In this document: piece after piece, positions 1,112-9,123 of the stretch
Position numbering within the stretch: the stretch's first letter is position 1
Layout of the letters: each line of letters starts with the position of its first letter
NCBI GenBank assembly: GCA_946629525.1
Contig: CAMOXU010000027.1
Location: 1-32,376, forward strand
From: an uncultured Clostridia bacterium
GTDB taxonomy: Bacteria; Bacillota; Clostridia; Lachnospirales; Lachnospiraceae
DNA: 32,376 bases
Direction: 5' to 3'
Translations under genes and position numbers: made by a program
The notes under the pieces: generated by a model
Told to the model about the DNA's origin: nothing
What the model saw: only the letters and a program-made list of their open reading frames with translations
Database searches by the model: none

Positions 1112-2086
1112 CTAATACGTAAACTTCTCCGCCAGGATCAGCGAGAACCTCTCCGCCGTCTCCTCGTACATGTGCCCGTCCCAGTCGGCAAAGAGATCGG
1201 GATCCGTCAGATCTTCATTTTCCGAAAGAAGCTCTCCCGACGTGAAGTCCAGATATTCAAAGCCGTATGTCTCCGCAAGAGACCGCATCTCCTCCGATGC
1301 AGCGGCATAGCTGTCGGCACACGCACGAAGCGTCTCATCCGGGACCGGCGTCGTCACGACGACGAACTCGATCTTCATCCTCCTGCAGTATTCCGCCATC
1401 ATCACAAAATATCTGCGCGCGTCCTTCTGCAGCATCGCCTCCGACCATTCGCGGGGCACGATCGAATCGTTCCATTTTCCGGGGTGGATCGCCATAAAGC
1501 CGTCATACTCGACCGTCTGTGTATCCGTATTGAAATTCTCGACGCCATAGTCCCTGTACACTTCGCTTCTCTTCACATCGAGATTTTCGGGGATCAGGCT
1601 CCACTGCTCCCGGTAAAAGTACCAGGGCGCGCAGAACGTTCTGAAATCCACCTTCCACATCTTCGCGAAGAAGTACTGGACCTTTGTCCACGACATGCGC
1701 ATCTCGCCGAAGAGGCCCGAGAACGTGCTGTCCACTTCCTGCGCGGTGATCCAGTAATTCGGGTCGAACTCATAGATCACCCTGGTCGGAGCATGGCCCG
1801 CAGTCACGGCATCCTTCAGAAAGAAGTAGCTGTCGACCGGGAATTCCTCCCCCTGCGCGGCGTTGAACGCGCTCCTGCCCGTCACGTAAGCAACATAGGC
1901 AGGGTCGATATTGGTCGCCCCGTGGGAGGAGCCGAGGATCAGATCGTCAAAGGTCTCATTTTCGATCTTGTGAAGCTTATACCTCGTAAACGTGTAGGGG
2001 ATCAGCAGATAGTTGAAGAGCGCGTTCGTTCCCATAAGAATCGCCAGAAAGAGAATGGGGACCGCGGCCCGTTTAAAAATTCGCAT
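1112..2086 (-). CDS. SGNH/AlgJ-DltD-like membrane-anchored protein, MBOAT partner
   Basis: The 324-residue protein begins with a single hydrophobic segment (about 7-29) that should anchor it to the membrane with the rest outside. An SGNH-hydrolase block I motif, LILGSSHG, lies at 49-56 (Ser54 as likely nucleophile), and DWDGH at 301-305 near the C terminus supplies a candidate Asp/His pair. It starts 14 bases inside the end of the MBOAT gene, after a GGGAGG site. MBOAT acyltransferases such as DltB and AlgI commonly pair with such proteins (DltD, AlgJ, AlgX), which act in outer-face acyl transfer. It is shorter than the roughly 420 residues of DltD, so it is a functional analogue rather than clear DltD. 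The acceptor polymer is unknown. Confidence 0.72.
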   Translation of the reverse strand: MRIFKRAAVPILFLAILMGTNALFNYLLIPYTFTRYKLHKIENETFDDLILGSSHGATNIDPAYVAYVTGRSAFNAAQGEEFPVDSYFFLKDAVTAGHAPTRVIYEFDPNYWITAQEVDSTFSGLFGEMRMSWTKVQYFFAKMWKVDFRTFCAPWYFYREQWSLIPENLDVKRSEVYRDYGVENFNTDTQTVEYDGFMAIHPGKWNDSIVPREWSEAMLQKDARRYFVMMAEYCRRMKIEFVVVTTPVPDETLRACADSYAAASEEMRSLAETYGFEYLDFTSGELLSENEDLTDPDLFADWDGHMYEETAERFSLILAEKFTY

Positions 2087-3560
2087 AGATGAAACCTCCC
2101 TGCGAAAGCGGTTCGCTGCCGATCAGTACAAGTGAGAGAACGAGAAGAAGAAGGACGGCGAACCGTACCGGAAGAGGCTTTTGGCGAAGCACCTCCCCCA
2201 CGTCCGTGCCCCTCTCCTCCATGATACTGTGAAGGAAGAGGACCGCGCATCCGAAGATGATCGCTGCGAACGTGACTGCGGGAGATCCGGACCAGCACGC
2301 GCCCGCATCGACCACGTTGATGCTGAACGAAAAGCGCAGAATGCTGTCCCGCATCATCATAAGGGCCTGTCCCACACTGCCTGCCCGGTCGAAATACCAG
2401 CTGATATTCACGAGCGCGAACGTGCGCAGGATCTGGAAAATGAAGAACCATCTGCTGTCCTTCCCGATCCCGAGCCGCTTCCTTATGTCGCGGTAGTTCT
2501 TTGCAAGAAGTCCCGAAACGCCGATGATGACACCATTGTAGAGTCCGTACGCGATATTGTGCCAGGCGGGTCCGTGCCAGACACCGACGACCAGGAACAC
2601 GATCACGTTGGCAGCGCAGATCGGCATCGTACGGCCGACGCTTTTGCCCATGTGCTTTTTGCACCATTTTCCGAACCGCCCCATCCATCCGGAGAGCGAG
2701 ATCGGGTAAAAAAGGTAGTCCTTCATCCAGGTCCCGAGCGTGATGTGCCAGCGGTGCCAGAAATCCGTGATGGAGACTGCGAAGAAGGGCTGCCTGAAAT
2801 TTTCGTCCAGCGTGATCCCGAGCATTTCCGCGATGCCGCAGACGACATCGATCCCGCCGGAGAAATCCCCGTAAAGCTGTGCGCTGTACATGAGGACTCC
2901 CAGGAGCCCGTAGCCCCGGAGGGTCGCGTACTGATCAAAGATCGTATTGACATAGAGCGCCGCGTTGTCGGCGATCACGATCTTCTTGAAAAAGCCCCAG
3001 ACGATCCTGTACATTCCGCGCAGGATCCGGTCCATGTCAAACTCCCGTTCCGCGTAAAGCGAGTCGGCGAGCCTGCTGTAACGTCCGATCGGTCCCTGCA
3101 GAATCTGGGGAAAGAAAGAAAGAAAAAGTGCGAACCGGAAGGGGTTCCGCTCAGCCCGTATCCTCTTCCAGTGAACGTCCAGAAGATATCCTGTCGCCTG
3201 AAAGGTATAGAAGGAGATACCCAGGGGGAGCAGGAGCTTCATTTCCCGGATCTCAGTGCCGAAGAGCCCGTTCAGGTTGCCGATCATAAAGTTCGTATAC
3301 TTGACCGCCGCGAGCATGCCGAAATCGAGAAGAAGGGTGACAGGCACGGCAGCCTTCGATCCGTTCTCCGCCCAGAGGCCGCCGAGATAAGTAACGACTG
3401 TCGCGAAAAGAATAAAGAAAATGTACTGCGGTCCCTGAGCAAGATAATATATGTATGAAAAAATCAGCAGCCAGACCCACTGACACCTTTTGGGAATCAG
3501 ATAGTATCCGGCTGTACAGATCGCAGTGAACGCTAAAAATTCTACTGATACAAATGACAT
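2073..3560 (-). CDS. MBOAT family O-acyltransferase (DltB/AlgI-like)
   Basis: This is a 495-residue multi-pass membrane protein. MBOAT hallmarks are FWHRWHITLGTWMKDYLFYP at about 267-286 and GVWHGPAWHN at 326-335, whose His329 is the expected catalytic histidine. LPLGISFYTFQ at 111-121 and FFPQILQGPIGRY at 149-161 are also typical of the AlgI/DltB branch. Family members pass an acyl group from a cytosolic thioester donor to a polymer on the outer face. The donor here is probably the carrier protein encoded just upstream (3608-3832), and the downstream SGNH gene overlaps by 14 bases. The start follows an AGAGG site. DltB proper is usually around 400 residues, so the closest relatives may be AlgI-type proteins of exopolysaccharide loci. 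Confidence 0.9.
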   Translation of the reverse strand: MSFVSVEFLAFTAICTAGYYLIPKRCQWVWLLIFSYIYYLAQGPQYIFFILFATVVTYLGGLWAENGSKAAVPVTLLLDFGMLAAVKYTNFMIGNLNGLFGTEIREMKLLLPLGISFYTFQATGYLLDVHWKRIRAERNPFRFALFLSFFPQILQGPIGRYSRLADSLYAEREFDMDRILRGMYRIVWGFFKKIVIADNAALYVNTIFDQYATLRGYGLLGVLMYSAQLYGDFSGGIDVVCGIAEMLGITLDENFRQPFFAVSITDFWHRWHITLGTWMKDYLFYPISLSGWMGRFGKWCKKHMGKSVGRTMPICAANVIVFLVVGVWHGPAWHNIAYGLYNGVIIGVSGLLAKNYRDIRKRLGIGKDSRWFFIFQILRTFALVNISWYFDRAGSVGQALMMMRDSILRFSFSINVVDAGACWSGSPAVTFAAIIFGCAVLFLHSIMEERGTDVGEVLRQKPLPVRFAVLLLLVLSLVLIGSEPLSQGGFIYANF

Positions 3561-3607
3561 AAGAACCTCTATGCGGCGCCTTTACGCGCGCTGCATATCA
3601 CGAAATC

Positions 3608-3832
3608 TCATCCCTGAAGGCGCTGCACCATCTCATAAAGTGCCTTCGCGGAATTAAAGTTCTCCGGAATGATCTCCGCCGGTGTGATGCGGATATCGTA
3701 TGCGTCCTCGAGCTCGCTCACGATGGAGAGAATCGCGAAGGAATCCAGAATTCCGTCGTCGATCAGTGTCGTACAGGTCTCATAATCAGCGTCCGGCTGA
3801 ATATCCTCAAGGATCTCGATCAATTCATCCAT
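3608..3832 (-). CDS. Acyl carrier protein / DltC-like aminoacyl carrier
   Basis: A 74-residue acidic four-helix carrier protein. The phosphopantetheine attachment site is Ser31 in GILDSFAIL (27-35), close to the DSF/DSL motif of DltC and other carriers. The ATG overlaps the last 8 bases of the decarboxylase gene and has GGAGG nine bases upstream, which indicates translational coupling. By position it should carry the group activated by the adenylating enzyme at 5115-6611 and hand it to the MBOAT. The tight link with the decarboxylase suggests that enzyme may act on the carrier-bound amino acid, as BtrK does on BtrI in butirosin synthesis. That last step is inference. Confidence 0.9.
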   Translation of the reverse strand: MDELIEILEDIQPDADYETCTTLIDDGILDSFAILSIVSELEDAYDIRITPAEIIPENFNSAKALYEMVQRLQG

Positions 3833-5051
3833 AGTTAAAGTCCTCCGTAAAAATCTGTTTTCTTGCTTCTTTTATATCCCCGCCGCAGCGAAGATATACG
3901 CGGGGCAGATCCCGGCTCAGGAAGAGACTGATTCCCTCCGTGACCGAATATGCTCCGGTGCAGTCAAACACAAGTATATCACCCGGCTCCGGGTTATGCA
4001 ACGGAACCTCTTTGACAATTACGTCGCTGACCGTGCAGAGGGATCCGCAGACAGAATACTTCTCGTCCGTCTCCGACGGAAGGGGCACGTCCCCGTCCTT
4101 CGACCGCATAAAGGGCAGCTTCATGGCCATCATCTGACCATAGTAATTCACCTGGTGGATCCCGCCGTCGCAGATCAGATAATTAACGCCCCGGTTGGTC
4201 TTCCGGTCCATGATCCGGGTAACGTAGGATCCGCAGCAGGCCGCGAAAAAGCGTCCCATCTCAAGGGAGATCCTCCCTTTGAAGTTCATTCCGTCGAGAA
4301 GATCGTTGAGCGAACGAAGGAGCTCATCCTCTTCCACGGGCTTTTCCTTCCGGAAATAATTGACGGGCAGCCCGGGACCGTACTCGAGCTCCTCCGCCCG
4401 GAATCCGCATTCTTCATCGAGCCTGGAAAGAAGTGCATCCAGATATGCGATCTCCTTCTCAATATTGCGCAGCTTTTTCTGCGTTCCCGAGTAAAGCTGG
4501 ATCCCGATAAAATGAAGGCACGGATACTTTTCCCGCTCCTTAAGGACCCGTACGATCTCCTCCTCGTCCATCCCGAACTGATTGCCGGAGGTCACGCGGA
4601 GAAGGACGTCGACAGGGGCATTTTCACCCAGGACCGCCCCGGCCGCCCTACCCAGGATCTCAATATGGTGCATGGACTCCGCCGTATAGACCGGGCGGGC
4701 TCCCGTATCTCCCGCGCCTGCATATTCCATGATCCGGCGGAAATCCGCCTCCTCCTTGTTGACGCCGGAGAGGACCATCTGCCGGGCGGGGATCCCCGCC
4801 TTCTCGCAGATCCGCTCCTCTCCCGGAGAGCAGATCTCGAACGCATCGACAAGACCCGAGACAGCCCCGACGATGAACGGGTTGGCCTTCATCGCATAGA
4901 CGATGCGCTTTCCCGGAAGGTGCTTTCGAAGGTACTCTGTGCGCGCCTTCAGAATATCAATATCAAAAATGTAGGACGGAGTCTTAAGCTCCGCGTTCCC
5001 GTTGTCGTTCCCGTACAGGGACAGGAATTCTTCTATCTTCATCATCCGCAT
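3825..5051 (-). CDS. PLP-dependent decarboxylase, BtrK/LysA-like (fold type III)
   Basis: The 408-residue protein has the alanine-racemase-fold N domain with PLP lysine Lys55 in VYAMKANP, and the group IV decarboxylase C domain. Motifs include HFIGIQLYSGTQ (180-191), EMGR (264-267), ICDGGIHQ (293-300), CGSLCTVSD (335-343, candidate catalytic Cys339) and GAY (366-368). The pattern is nearer to BtrK-type, carrier-associated decarboxylases and the decarboxylase of exosortase-A loci than to housekeeping LysA. Oddities: the glycine-rich phosphate loop reads GPGLP (225-229) where LysA has GGGxG, and the usual first His of HxHxGSQ is Gln185. Start choice is uncertain; ATGs at 5045 and 5042 are alternatives. 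Substrate and product are not known. Neighbours argue for a cell-surface modification, not lysine synthesis. Confidence 0.85.
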   Translation of the reverse strand: MRMMKIEEFLSLYGNDNGNAELKTPSYIFDIDILKARTEYLRKHLPGKRIVYAMKANPFIVGAVSGLVDAFEICSPGEERICEKAGIPARQMVLSGVNKEEADFRRIMEYAGAGDTGARPVYTAESMHHIEILGRAAGAVLGENAPVDVLLRVTSGNQFGMDEEEIVRVLKEREKYPCLHFIGIQLYSGTQKKLRNIEKEIAYLDALLSRLDEECGFRAEELEYGPGLPVNYFRKEKPVEEDELLRSLNDLLDGMNFKGRISLEMGRFFAACCGSYVTRIMDRKTNRGVNYLICDGGIHQVNYYGQMMAMKLPFMRSKDGDVPLPSETDEKYSVCGSLCTVSDVIVKEVPLHNPEPGDILVFDCTGAYSVTEGISLFLSRDLPRVYLRCGGDIKEARKQIFTEDFNYG

Positions 5052-5114
5052 TCTCAGACACAGCCCGGCCGCCTCTGCCGGCGGGCGGGCCGAAGTGCTC
5101 CTTTCTGCACTGTA

Positions 5115-6611
5115 TCATTTTCTTCCCGCAAGCGCCTTCCTGTCGATCTTCCCGTTCTTTGTGAGCGGCATCTCGTCCACCTGCACAAAACGGTTCGGGA
5201 TCATATATTTCGGAATGCGCAGAGCGAGCTTCGCCGCGAGCTCCTTCTTATCGATCCCGCCGACATAGAATGCCATGATCTTGTTCTTCTCAAAGATACA
5301 GCATGCCCGTTCGACCTCTTCGACCGCGTCGAGCGCCCGGTCGATCTCTCCGAGCTCGATCCGGTGTCCCATATGCTTGATCTGGAAATCCTTCCTCGAC
5401 GCAAAGCACAGGAGCCCGTTCTCATCATAGTGGGCAAGGTCTCCCGTCCTGTAGATCGTCTCAAGGTACTTTTTATTCAGCGGGTTCTGCACGAAGGCTT
5501 TTGCGGTCTGCCCGGGATTATTATAATATCCGAGCGCCAGCGCTGTTCCCGACACACAGATCTCTCCGTCCACCCCCGGCTCCGTGACGAGACGGTCCTC
5601 CTCGTCGAGGAGAAAGACCTTCTCATTGGGGAAGGGCACGCCGCTCGGGATCGACTCCCCGCGCTCGTACATCCGGTCGATCACATAGTACGTGCAGTTG
5701 CAGGTGATCTCCGTCGGCCCGTAGAGGTTCACGAATTTCACGTCCGGCAGTGCCTTCTGCCACTCGGTCAGGTGACGGATCGGCATGACCTCGCCCGAGA
5801 AGAGTACCTTTTTGACTTCGGACGGAACTTTATAGTCAAATCCGTGCAGCTGTGAGATGACGCACATGGCCGAGACCGCCCAGATGAGCGTCGTCACGTG
5901 CCGCTCCACAAGAAAATCGAGAAGCGTCGTCGGGATCGAGAAATATTTCGTCGGAATGATCTGCATCGTAGCGCCGACAGCGATCGTCGAGTAGATGTCC
6001 TTGACGGACACGTCAAAATCGAACGGGGCCTGGTTGCCGATCACGTCGTCCTCCGTGATGTCGAAGAGCTCTGTGAAGCAGTCAATAAAGTCGATGACAG
6101 AGCGGTGTCCTACGAGGACTCCCTTCGGGACGCCGGTAGAGCCCGACGTAAAATTGCAGTAGAGCGGGTCAATATCGAGGCTCTGCCTGCGGATCCTGTC
6201 GAGAAGGACCGGATCCTCCTCCGTTTTCCCGAGATCCTCCAGATAATAAATTGTTCCCTCGAAGCCGAAAGCGGCAAGGTCCTCGTCGTACGCGTGGCTC
6301 GTGATGACGAAATCCCGCTCCAGGGTCCCGAGGATGTCGAGCAGTCTCATTTTCGGCTGTTTCGTGTCGAGCAGCGTATAGAAGCAGCCTGCACAGACCG
6401 TGCCGAAAAACACCTCGATCGTATCCACGCCCTTCCCCATGAACACGGGGACAGGGCTTCCCGGCTCCGCGAAGGATGCGATCGCCGTCCCGATCCGCCG
6501 TGCGCGGGCAAGAAGGCCTGCGTACGTGACCTCGGATTCCGGGTCGGCAAAACTAATCCTGTCCGGAAATCTCCGGGCAGATCTTTCAAGATATTCCAGT
6601 ATATTTTTCAT
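5115..6611 (-). CDS. Amino-acid adenylating enzyme, DltA-like
   Basis: A 498-residue ANL-superfamily enzyme that should adenylate an amino or other carboxylic acid and load it on the nearby carrier. Core motifs are clear: TSGSTGVPK (155-163, ATP loop), FDFDVSVKD (197-205), NLYGPTE (295-301), YRTGDL (387-392), the hinge around KDFQIKHMGHRIELGE (407-422) and the C-terminal catalytic Lys488 in NGKIDR. It is a stand-alone A domain of DltA length. In DltA the segment equivalent to LFSGE (270-274) is, as I recall, LFCGE, whose Cys helps select D-alanine; here it is Ser272, so the substrate may not be D-Ala. The start has GGAGG four bases upstream. Only 38 bases separate it from rex, with no clear terminator. 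Confidence 0.9.
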   Translation of the reverse strand: MKNILEYLERSARRFPDRISFADPESEVTYAGLLARARRIGTAIASFAEPGSPVPVFMGKGVDTIEVFFGTVCAGCFYTLLDTKQPKMRLLDILGTLERDFVITSHAYDEDLAAFGFEGTIYYLEDLGKTEEDPVLLDRIRRQSLDIDPLYCNFTSGSTGVPKGVLVGHRSVIDFIDCFTELFDITEDDVIGNQAPFDFDVSVKDIYSTIAVGATMQIIPTKYFSIPTTLLDFLVERHVTTLIWAVSAMCVISQLHGFDYKVPSEVKKVLFSGEVMPIRHLTEWQKALPDVKFVNLYGPTEITCNCTYYVIDRMYERGESIPSGVPFPNEKVFLLDEEDRLVTEPGVDGEICVSGTALALGYYNNPGQTAKAFVQNPLNKKYLETIYRTGDLAHYDENGLLCFASRKDFQIKHMGHRIELGEIDRALDAVEEVERACCIFEKNKIMAFYVGGIDKKELAAKLALRIPKYMIPNRFVQVDEMPLTKNGKIDRKALAGRK

Positions 6612-6649
6612 TGGACCTCCTATGCCCCGGTAAGCCTCCGCAGGCCGCC

Positions 6650-7291
6650 TTATCGGTTGATATGATGAGACAGCATGGCCAGCGAAGAGGCAAGATTTTC
6701 ATTTTGCACGAGAACGCCTTCCGGCACGTCAAGCCGGAGAAGCGCAAAGTTCCAGATCGCACGGACCCCTGCGTCCACCAGCACATCTGCGACCCTCTGG
6801 GCTGCTTCCATCGGCGTTGTGATAATACCGATCAGGATCCCGTTATCCCTGCAGTAGCTTCCGAGGTCTTCAAAGGACAGGACCCGAATGCCGCTGATCG
6901 ACGTTCCGATCAGTTCTTCCCTGGTGTCAAAGGCAGCCGAGATACTGAGACCGTACTGTTCAAATTCGCTGTTGCCGAGAAGCGCACGTCCGAGTGAACC
7001 GGCCCCGACGATGACAGCGTCCTTCCGATCGTTATAACCCATATACTCCTTGATATCGCGGATCAGCCCCCCGACCTGAAAGCCCGACTTCGGCTTTCCC
7101 TGTGTGGAGGAGACCGCAGCTATGTCCTTTCGCACAAGCACATCATTCAACTTGAGTTCATTGGCGATGGATGTGGCGGAAATCGTCTGTATTCCTTCCT
7201 CCTCGGCTTTTTCCAGACAGTGCAGGTAATACGGCATCCGCTGGAGTGCCTGAATAGTCAGAAGAACCTCTTTCTCACTTGTTTTTTTCAT
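6650..7291 (-). CDS. rex: Redox-sensing transcriptional repressor Rex
   Basis: Rex senses the NADH/NAD+ ratio and represses fermentative and respiratory genes when NADH is low. The 214-residue protein has an N-terminal winged helix (about 1-80, with VLVRKDIAAV and the family motif GKPKSGFQVGGL) and a Rossmann domain with VIVGAGSLGRAL (93-104) that binds the dinucleotide; the C terminus is the domain-swapped helix. I chose ATG 7291 because it is preceded by AGGAAA and matches the family N terminus; upstream extension to 7354 is not supported. It is transcribed towards the adenylation gene with a short gap, so it probably heads that operon. Confidence 0.93.
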   Translation of the reverse strand: MKKTSEKEVLLTIQALQRMPYYLHCLEKAEEEGIQTISATSIANELKLNDVLVRKDIAAVSSTQGKPKSGFQVGGLIRDIKEYMGYNDRKDAVIVGAGSLGRALLGNSEFEQYGLSISAAFDTREELIGTSISGIRVLSFEDLGSYCRDNGILIGIITTPMEAAQRVADVLVDAGVRAIWNFALLRLDVPEGVLVQNENLASSLAMLSHHINR

Positions 7292-7629: not shown

Positions 7630-9123
7630 ATGGAAACAAATAATCCGGTCGAACAGGGAACCTCCCGCCTTACAAAGGCACAGAAGGCAGCCCGAAAAAA
7701 AGAGCGGCACCGCCGCATGATGATCCGAACGATCACGACGCTGGTCATTTTTTTCATTATCGCGGCTGCTGTGATCCTTGTGGGGACGAGTATTCTGCGA
7801 AAGCGCCGCGAGCGTGCTGCAAAGAACGCTGAGCGGGAAGCCCGCATCACGGCGGAGGAGGCAGCCCTCGCCGCCCGGCGCGAGAAGATCCGGGAAGCCG
7901 ATACGCTCGCCCTCTCCTACGATTACGACGGGGCGATCGCACTTCTTCAGGCACTCCCGAACTACGACAGAGACTCGGATCTTGTCAACGCGATCGCAGG
8001 CTACACGGCGACGAAGTCCACGCTGGAAGCCAAGGATGTGACGAAGATCCCGCACATTTTCTATCACTCGCTCATCGTTGATCCGGGAAGAGCTTTCGAT
8101 ACGACGTTGTGGGATCCCGACACGCTGGCCGGCGTCAACGCCTGGATGACGACCGTCGACGAATTCGACAAGATCACGCAGCAGATGTATGACAGAGGGT
8201 GGGTACTGGTCCGTATGCGGGATCTGGTCACCCAGAAGACCGACGAGAACGGCAATGTCACGTTCGAGAAGAACAAGAGCCTTCTTCTCCCGGAGAACAA
8301 GCAGCCCTTCGTCCTCTCCGTCGATGACTGGAGCTACTATCATTCCTATGACGGGAAGGGCTACGCTGACAAAGCGGTCGTCGATGAGAACGGCAAGGTC
8401 AAGTGCCAGTATACGGATGCGGCCGGAAACGTTTCAGTCGGGGACTATGATGTCGTTCCCAGACTCAATACGTTCCTTGAAGCCCACCCGGACGGAGCCT
8501 ATAAGGGGGCGCGCGGTCTGATCGCCATGACCGGCTATAACGGAGTCTTCGGTTACCGGACCGACACGGCCTACCTGACAGGGGAACGGCTGCAGGCAGA
8601 CCAGAGGATCTTCCTCGAGTCTCATCCGGATTTCAACTGGGAACAGGATGTGGCGGATGCGACAAGAGTCGCGGAAGCGGTCAAGGCGAGCGGCTGGGAG
8701 TTCGCCTGCCATACCTGGGGACACCTGAGCGTCACGGGAAAGCCCGTAGAGACGCTGGCAACGGATCAGGAAAAATGGCAGAACACGGTCGCCAATATCA
8801 CCGGTCCGACTGATACGATCATTTTCGCGCACGGCGCTGACATCGGCACCTGGCGCGATTACGACGAGGCGACAAATGACGTCTTTGCCTACTTCAAGAG
8901 CATGGGCTACAACTTCTACGCAAATGTCGACGCGTCGAGTGAATACTGGGTCCAGATCCGCTCGAATTACTGCCGCCAGGGCCGTATCGACTGTGACGGA
9001 CTGCAGATGTGGCGTTCGATCTCCGGCGCGGCCAAGACCAATGTCTTCGAGAATCTCTTCGATGTGAATTCCGTGTTCGACGAGAGAAGGCCCACACCGG
9101 TAAGCGCGACCGGAAAGTCCTGA
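7630..9123 (+). CDS. Membrane-anchored NodB-like polysaccharide deacetylase
   Basis: A 497-residue protein with a very basic cytosolic N terminus, one transmembrane helix (about 32-56), a charged coiled-coil stretch (57-90), a short helical-repeat-like segment (88-125), then a NodB-like catalytic domain. Carbohydrate esterase family 4 signatures are VLSVDDWSYY (228-237, metal/base pair Asp232-Asp233) and CHTWGH (360-365, His361 and His365). Such enzymes remove N- or O-acetyl groups from peptidoglycan, chitin-like glycans or exopolysaccharides outside the cell. An insert of about 125 residues separates the two motifs, longer than in minimal NodB domains. It stands alone, divergent from rex and convergent with the LacI gene. 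The substrate cannot be told from sequence. Confidence 0.82.
   Translation: METNNPVEQGTSRLTKAQKAARKKERHRRMMIRTITTLVIFFIIAAAVILVGTSILRKRRERAAKNAEREARITAEEAALAARREKIREADTLALSYDYDGAIALLQALPNYDRDSDLVNAIAGYTATKSTLEAKDVTKIPHIFYHSLIVDPGRAFDTTLWDPDTLAGVNAWMTTVDEFDKITQQMYDRGWVLVRMRDLVTQKTDENGNVTFEKNKSLLLPENKQPFVLSVDDWSYYHSYDGKGYADKAVVDENGKVKCQYTDAAGNVSVGDYDVVPRLNTFLEAHPDGAYKGARGLIAMTGYNGVFGYRTDTAYLTGERLQADQRIFLESHPDFNWEQDVADATRVAEAVKASGWEFACHTWGHLSVTGKPVETLATDQEKWQNTVANITGPTDTIIFAHGADIGTWRDYDEATNDVFAYFKSMGYNFYANVDASSEYWVQIRSNYCRQGRIDCDGLQMWRSISGAAKTNVFENLFDVNSVFDERRPTPVSATGKS

Follow-up and report, generated by a model that had tools for sequence, protein, structure and literature searches.

A 32,376-nucleotide stretch of contig CAMOXU010000027.1 (positions 1 to 32,376) from an uncultured Clostridia bacterium of the Lachnospiraceae (assembly GCA_946629525.1; the whole stretch is referred to below as the window) carries on its minus strand a group of five genes encoding a stand-alone adenylation (A) domain, a pyridoxal phosphate (PLP)-dependent decarboxylase (DEC), an acyl carrier protein (ACP), an MBOAT transferase and an SGNH-like protein. 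On balance, the explanation that is favoured for these genes, with modest confidence, is a surface-acylation cassette of Dlt type that includes a tailoring step of its own: an acidic amino acid would be loaded, decarboxylated on the carrier and transferred to a surface polymer. According to this scheme the A domain would activate a small amino acid with a second carboxylate (aspartate/glutamate class) and load it onto the ACP, where DEC would decarboxylate it, as BtrK and VinO do with their substrates, to leave an acyl thioester with a primary amine. The product would be beta-alanyl from aspartate or gamma-aminobutyryl from glutamate, both of which fit. The MBOAT would then take the acyl group off the carrier and onto its own Tyr492 at the outer face, and the SGNH protein would transfer it by way of Ser54 to a surface polymer, either one like lipoteichoic acid or an exopolysaccharide. 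If true, this would provide an amine-bearing surface group by a route other than the D-alanine pathway.

Conservation of the gene set

The A domain (positions 5115-6611, 498 aa) is followed by DEC (3825-5051, 408 aa), the DltC-like carrier (3608-3832, 74 aa, with the expected phosphopantetheine site GILDS31F), the DltB-related but longer MBOAT (2073-3560, 495 aa) and the membrane-anchored SGNH-like protein (1112-2086, 324 aa). The start of the ACP gene overlaps the end of DEC by 8 bases (3825-3832) and the SGNH and MBOAT genes overlap by 14 bases (2073-2086), so that the five open reading frames (ORFs) on a single strand and both overlaps are exactly as the original prediction had described them. 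DEC, a PLP fold-III enzyme with a CGSLCTVSD motif and Lys55 in AMKAN, might alternatively start at the ATG at 5042 (Met4), where alignments to relatives begin. Searches with Pfam and NCBIfam models matched the A domain to AMP-binding (191 bits), the MBOAT to its family (47.5 bits) and DEC to the Pfam families Orn_Arg_deC_N (55 bits) and Orn_DAP_Arg_deC (48 bits), with the carrier just below the PP-binding cut-off (20.6 against 20.8 bits) and at 33.7 against 68 for the DltC model.

Relatives' loci were obtained by scanning a genome collection of 84,980 species with a DEC alignment and taking the best 80 loci of at least 576 confirmed matches, which are pattern stretches rather than distinct genes. 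These loci were picked by DEC alone; a separate sample comprised 80 genomes, namely the window's own genome and its near relatives (G numbers below). The A domain adjoins DEC in 77/80 loci, the order A-DEC-ACP is kept in 73, an MBOAT match is present in 67 and all four genes are found in 65, demonstrating that the grouping is not due to chance and bearing out the expectation that the genes stay together in relatives. Where the A-domain match is missing (three loci), two loci end at a contig edge while L100 has 10 kb of upstream DNA without an A domain; where the MBOAT match is missing (13 loci), six are cut within 1.5 kb and seven have at least 6 kb of downstream DNA. Of the 60 genes that immediately follow the MBOAT, 57 have a G-x-S motif of SGNH type.

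In the sample of 80 genomes there were 31 DEC matches, of which three weak ones (G053, G064 and G067; 25-28% identity) were rejected as cassette members, the G064 copy grouping with LysA in the tree described below, leaving the cassette DEC in 28 genomes. Twenty-four genomes have both DEC and an A domain whose pocket code begins DVK, the two lying together in 22 and the A domain lying at a contig end in the other two. A cassette-type MBOAT (at least 50% identity) was found in 18 genomes, 17 of them with DEC. Across the phylum DEC is rare, with matches in 4/398 evenly drawn genomes, own genome included, at E<=1e-45. Taken together, the cassette is a conserved five-gene set of many gut Lachnospiraceae and their relatives.

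Pocket code and decarboxylase

The pocket of the window A domain reads D200 V201 K204 I243 L270 S272 L296 C304 N305, which we take to be GrsA positions 235, 236, 239, 278, 299, 301, 322, 330 and 331 in the Stachelhaus naming. In an alignment of the window with 76 loci (77 rows, the L040 fragment being left out), with 89/498 invariant columns and a mean pairwise identity of 56%, the pocket consensus is D V K [ITV] [LIM] S [LVI] C N with six of the nine positions invariant. The invariant positions include Lys204 (codon 6000..6002, minus strand; pocket position 239), a proposed contact for a second carboxylate, suggesting that the loaded substrate carries one. True DltA proteins of the same genus (n=2) instead read DLMVLCTVC, the cysteine of the DltA pocket being the key contact for D-Ala (PMC11253843; this and the other papers are cited here from excerpts). 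Position 301, Cys in DltA, is Ser in 77/77 rows. Loading of D-Ala only had been named in the original prediction as an outcome that would speak against it; judged by the code, DVK..S.CN versus DLMVLCTVC, the A domain lacks the D-Ala code of DltA.

It is highly improbable that the cassette is a divergent ordinary dlt system, transferring D-Ala that is supplied by a racemase-like PLP enzyme, even though its genes fall into the same four functional classes as DltABCD and the PLP enzyme also matches Ala_racemase_N. In addition to the pocket code, the window scores far below the cut-offs of the Dlt models (DltA 280/560, DltB 170/375, DltC 34/68, no match to DltD), while the real dlt operon of G012, a member of the same genus used as a control, passes the DltB, DltC, DltD and PRK04813 DltA models and misses TIGR01734 only (532/560). 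The PLP enzyme has a C-terminal decarboxylase sheet domain, and in G020 the cassette occurs in addition to an A domain of DltA type. An ordinary dlt operon was rejected on code and model scores.

The pocket code and the decarboxylase tend to go together. Of the 36 A domains taken from the 80 genomes, 26 have the DVK code and 22 of these adjoin DEC, as against none of the 10 with other codes (Fisher p 4e-6, with no correction for relatedness and with some loci cut by contig ends, including that of G036 and the DltA of G020). The A domains of four further DEC-bearing genomes (G002, G003, G017 and G018) are absent or fragmentary and do not appear in this table.

The best solved relative of DEC is BtrK (97 bits), followed by SbnH and LysA. 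A 28-row tree, rooted at the midpoint and with some long branches, places the 15 cassette DECs in a single clade (100/100). This clade falls together with BtrK, three enzymes of exosortase type and three others, and a split supported at 97/97 separates them from the five LysA and the G064 enzyme. In keeping with this, the cysteine loop reads CT in the BtrK-side enzymes and in 24/24 cassette rows chosen by similarity alone, versus CE in 5/5 LysA; CT is also found in 81/81 rows of a larger DEC set, a count that is partly circular because the motif was one of the two search patterns. Against the LysA model TIGR01048, DEC scores 132 of the 298 bits required. In the structure comparison BtrK and LysA come out level, such that fold scores alone do not separate them. 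DEC as a second LysA was rejected by motif and tree, in agreement with the original prediction, and a LysA-type enzyme is encoded separately in the own genome. By its placement in the tree DEC is a putative carrier-linked (BtrK-type) decarboxylase, BtrK acting on glutamyl-BtrI and VinO on 3-methylaspartyl-VinL (PMC7857480, PMC11284099).

The same results bear on a meso-diaminopimelate route, in which this amino acid would be loaded by one centre and its other carboxyl removed by DEC to give lysyl-ACP and a lysylated surface polymer. Diaminopimelate is common in such cells and DEC has the fold of diaminopimelate decarboxylases, both of which favour this route; it is nevertheless quite unlikely, as DEC does not have the CE motif of LysA and the pocket code offers no further acidic residue for the distal amine. 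The separate LysA-type enzyme also argues against it, since lysine could then be loaded directly.

Two observations weigh against a strict form of the proposal that an acidic amino acid is decarboxylated on the carrier for surface transfer. The first is that 2/26 DVK-code modules (G005 and G043) have no DEC in the genome, such that an undecarboxylated version may exist or the DEC product may come from elsewhere. Modules of this code in genomes without a decarboxylase match lie at L148:4074-9970 and L150:6652-10880. A product available from elsewhere would suit the alternative that DEC acts on the free amino acid, after which the A domain loads the product (for example beta-alanine or GABA), much as IdnL3 acts on free beta-glutamate to give a starter amino acid (PMC11284099). 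This order of events is unlikely in view of the invariant Lys239, which suggests that the loaded substrate still has its second carboxylate, the grouping of DEC with BtrK, which acts on a carrier-bound amino acid (PMC7857480), and the adjacency of DEC and ACP in 73/80 loci, with overlap in the window. The second observation is the 7/80 loci that have at least 6 kb of downstream DNA without an MBOAT match. These would fit a trio of A domain, DEC and ACP that feeds the N-acylation of small molecules or sugars, the MBOAT-SGNH pair being just one of several users; similar trios occur in exopolysaccharide and other clusters, and at L115:3846-14712 the neighbours of the trio, within a cluster of sugar/capsule type, include an LpxD-like acyltransferase (131 bits, cut-off 207) and a DegT aminotransferase. 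With an MBOAT in 67/80 loci and the G-x-S motif in 57/60 genes right after it, a role of this kind is very unlikely. The interpretation offered in the original prediction thus stands in part: co-occurrence, the non-D-Ala code, the lineage of DEC and the transfer end agree with it, while the two modules without DEC and the seven loci without an MBOAT match speak against its strict reading.

Modules with other codes were also seen. The sister code DAKCAGLGM likewise has Lys239 and in 3/6 modules a gene for an Asp/Glu/cysteate-type racemase lies directly upstream of the A domain (L152:363-2728 and L154:6580-8777 by profile, L174:1030-3213 by eye), so that these modules perhaps load D-Asp (or D-cysteate) onto surface polymers. 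Dlt-like modules with the codes DSKDMCIVD and DNFFLCLDV are found at L158:6694-11903 and L153:1141-4504, respectively, with a GNAT gene lying between those for the A domain and the carrier in L158 (by Pfam) and a GNAT-like gene in L153 (by eye).

Transfer end, acceptor and flanking genes

The MBOAT ends in the hexapeptide FIYANF (2076..2093, minus strand), which includes Tyr492. A hexapeptide of this type serves in PatA as an acyl-tyrosine shuttle and is supplied in Dlt systems by DltX (PMC12148441). The terminal Y-x-x-F was found in 69/70 MBOATs, 42 with the full F-x-Y-x-x-F and 27 in which the first residue differs; the remaining MBOAT (L064) is cut by the contig end. His329, Tyr492 and Phe495 are kept in at least 97% of the 70 MBOATs and His272 is also conserved. 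By sequence, the only solved relatives of this MBOAT are DltB, and the control dlt operon of G012 encodes a 386-residue DltB without the motif together with a separate 53-residue ORF ending FTYAEF. In the window the motif is fused to the MBOAT and no separate DltX microprotein was seen, the window not having been searched for further small ORFs. In the excerpts of PMC12148441, MBOATs fed by a carrier occur with DltX and those fed by CoA with a fused shuttle, no other combination being named; because the motif of the cassette MBOAT is fused at the C-terminus and a carrier is encoded alongside, the cassette is predicted to pair a fused shuttle with a donor supplied by a carrier.

The SGNH-like protein matched no Pfam or NCBIfam model. 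Its AlphaFold2 model (mean pLDDT 96.0) matches DltD and other SGNH proteins, DltD entries coming top, and Ser54, Asp301 and His305 are invariant in 32 aligned rows. The hallmarks of an MBOAT-SGNH acyltransferase pair, namely the conserved MBOAT histidine, the shuttle tyrosine, and the SGNH Ser/Asp/His and fold, are all present. With the fused shuttle hexapeptide and an SGNH fold whose top matches are DltD, the case for surface transfer is stronger than that made originally.

Although a single A domain of this type is present in the own genome (82% complete), there are two further MBOAT-SGNH pairs (L132:7016-9653 and L133:1-2724, on contigs 14 and 137), whose MBOATs share 53-56% identity with that of the cassette and have the same hexapeptide type; no A domain or carrier was seen beside them. 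Extra MBOATs (at least 54% identity) away from DEC occur in seven of the 80 genomes (G000, G001, G010, G018, G020, G033 and G035; adjoining SGNH genes checked in the own genome only), all seven with DEC, and L048 has one trio followed by two MBOAT-SGNH pairs. A single loader may therefore serve additional MBOAT-SGNH pairs encoded at other sites of the genome.

For the acceptor, the own genome has five Sulfatase-family matches, two of the three scanned being weakly LtaS-like (29 and 53 bits against 970), and no TagF-type match was found in this assembly. In the locus flanks listed, no consistent polymer genes were apparent by eye.

Lachnospiraceae are major gut bacteria. A complete dltABCD is present in none of the eight commensal strains tabulated in the excerpts of PMC10877564, and the TIGR01734 DltA cut-off is not reached in any of the 80 genomes (the own one among them), the near miss being G012 with its full dlt operon; for these reasons the cassette represents a concrete, testable candidate for the tuning of surface charge in such bacteria. 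A wider proposal, held more tentatively and at somewhat less than even confidence, is that this is a second, so far unrecognised carrier-fed surface-charging system of gut Clostridia, with decarboxylation of an acidic amino acid to beta-alanyl or GABA, handover to a DltD-like enzyme by a tyrosine shuttle built into the MBOAT and one loader for several membrane transferase pairs. It would be one of a family of modular systems whose pocket codes vary in step with their tailoring enzymes (a decarboxylase, an Asp-type racemase, a GNAT or none at all).

Immediately upstream of the A domain lies a gene for the redox-sensing repressor Rex (6650-7291, minus strand; Rex model 252 bits), which accounts for the end of the originally proposed range at 7291, Rex itself having gone unmentioned there. 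A Rex match was found in just 2/80 relatives' loci (L039 and L043; the upstream flank is short in some loci) and Rex was rejected as a cassette member. On the opposite strand the cassette is flanked by a LarB homologue (208-957) and a weak polysaccharide-deacetylase-like protein just below cut-off (7630-9123). A complete cassette with a two-component system upstream and a tyrosine integrase gene nearby is found at L092:4731-16350, in a record titled Streptococcus suis SSHP-D, and may have come in on a mobile element. The upstream kinases of the four loci scanned (L069, L073, L082 and L092) are HisKA kinases, which fits a regulated surface change and proves nothing.

Relation to known systems

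No recognised description of this gene set was met in the openly licensed PMC literature searched, an absence that is weak because only such papers were covered. With Dlt the cassette shares the stand-alone A domain, the carrier, the MBOAT and an SGNH protein whose top structural matches are DltD, differing in the pocket code, the extra decarboxylase and the MBOAT-fused shuttle in place of DltX.

The BtrK-BtrI pair of butirosin and VinN-VinO-VinL of vicenistatin likewise rely on PLP-dependent decarboxylation of a carrier-bound dicarboxylic amino acid (PMC7857480, PMC11284099), with DEC closest to BtrK by sequence, but they feed antibiotics and have no MBOAT-SGNH pair. In the pocket, Ser301 corresponds to VinN Ser299 and Val236 to the residue selected in beta-Phe TycA (PMC11253843), whereas the beta13-beta14 loop is not shortened as in VinN and position 331 is Asn rather than Arg, VinN itself lying outside the alignment. 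Since the short loop of VinN is missing here, although the ligases of five other decarboxylase trios have a shorter stretch with Arg at the loop site, the cassette A domain probably evolved to its role from the Dlt side and not the VinN side. To our knowledge, BtrJ is not an A domain. The cassette would fit a carrier-linked decarboxylase of antibiotic-pathway type into a route of cell-envelope acylation.

The exosortase-A trio (TIGR03098, TIGR03099 and a carrier) has the same three functions, and trios of this type lie among glycosyltransferase and exopolysaccharide genes in S. meliloti pSymB, Sphingomonas and Aureimonas; no paper on its function turned up in the openly licensed PMC literature. 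It differs from the cassette in ligase pocket and loop, and the window falls below its cut-offs (A domain 178/592, DEC 169/478 bits); on the cut-offs and the ligase pocket an exosortase-A system was rejected. A further arrangement, on a Streptomyces plasmid (L162:7947-12857), places a PLP decarboxylase, AcpS, a hotdog protein, an AMP ligase and a carrier next to ectoine synthase and ectA.

PatA-PatB has the same C-terminal FxYxxF shuttle fused to its MBOAT and an SGNH partner, but uses acetyl-CoA and no carrier (PMC12148441), whereas the cassette encodes a carrier alongside. As such, the carrier-fed design of Dlt and the fused-shuttle design of PatA would appear to be joined here in one system.

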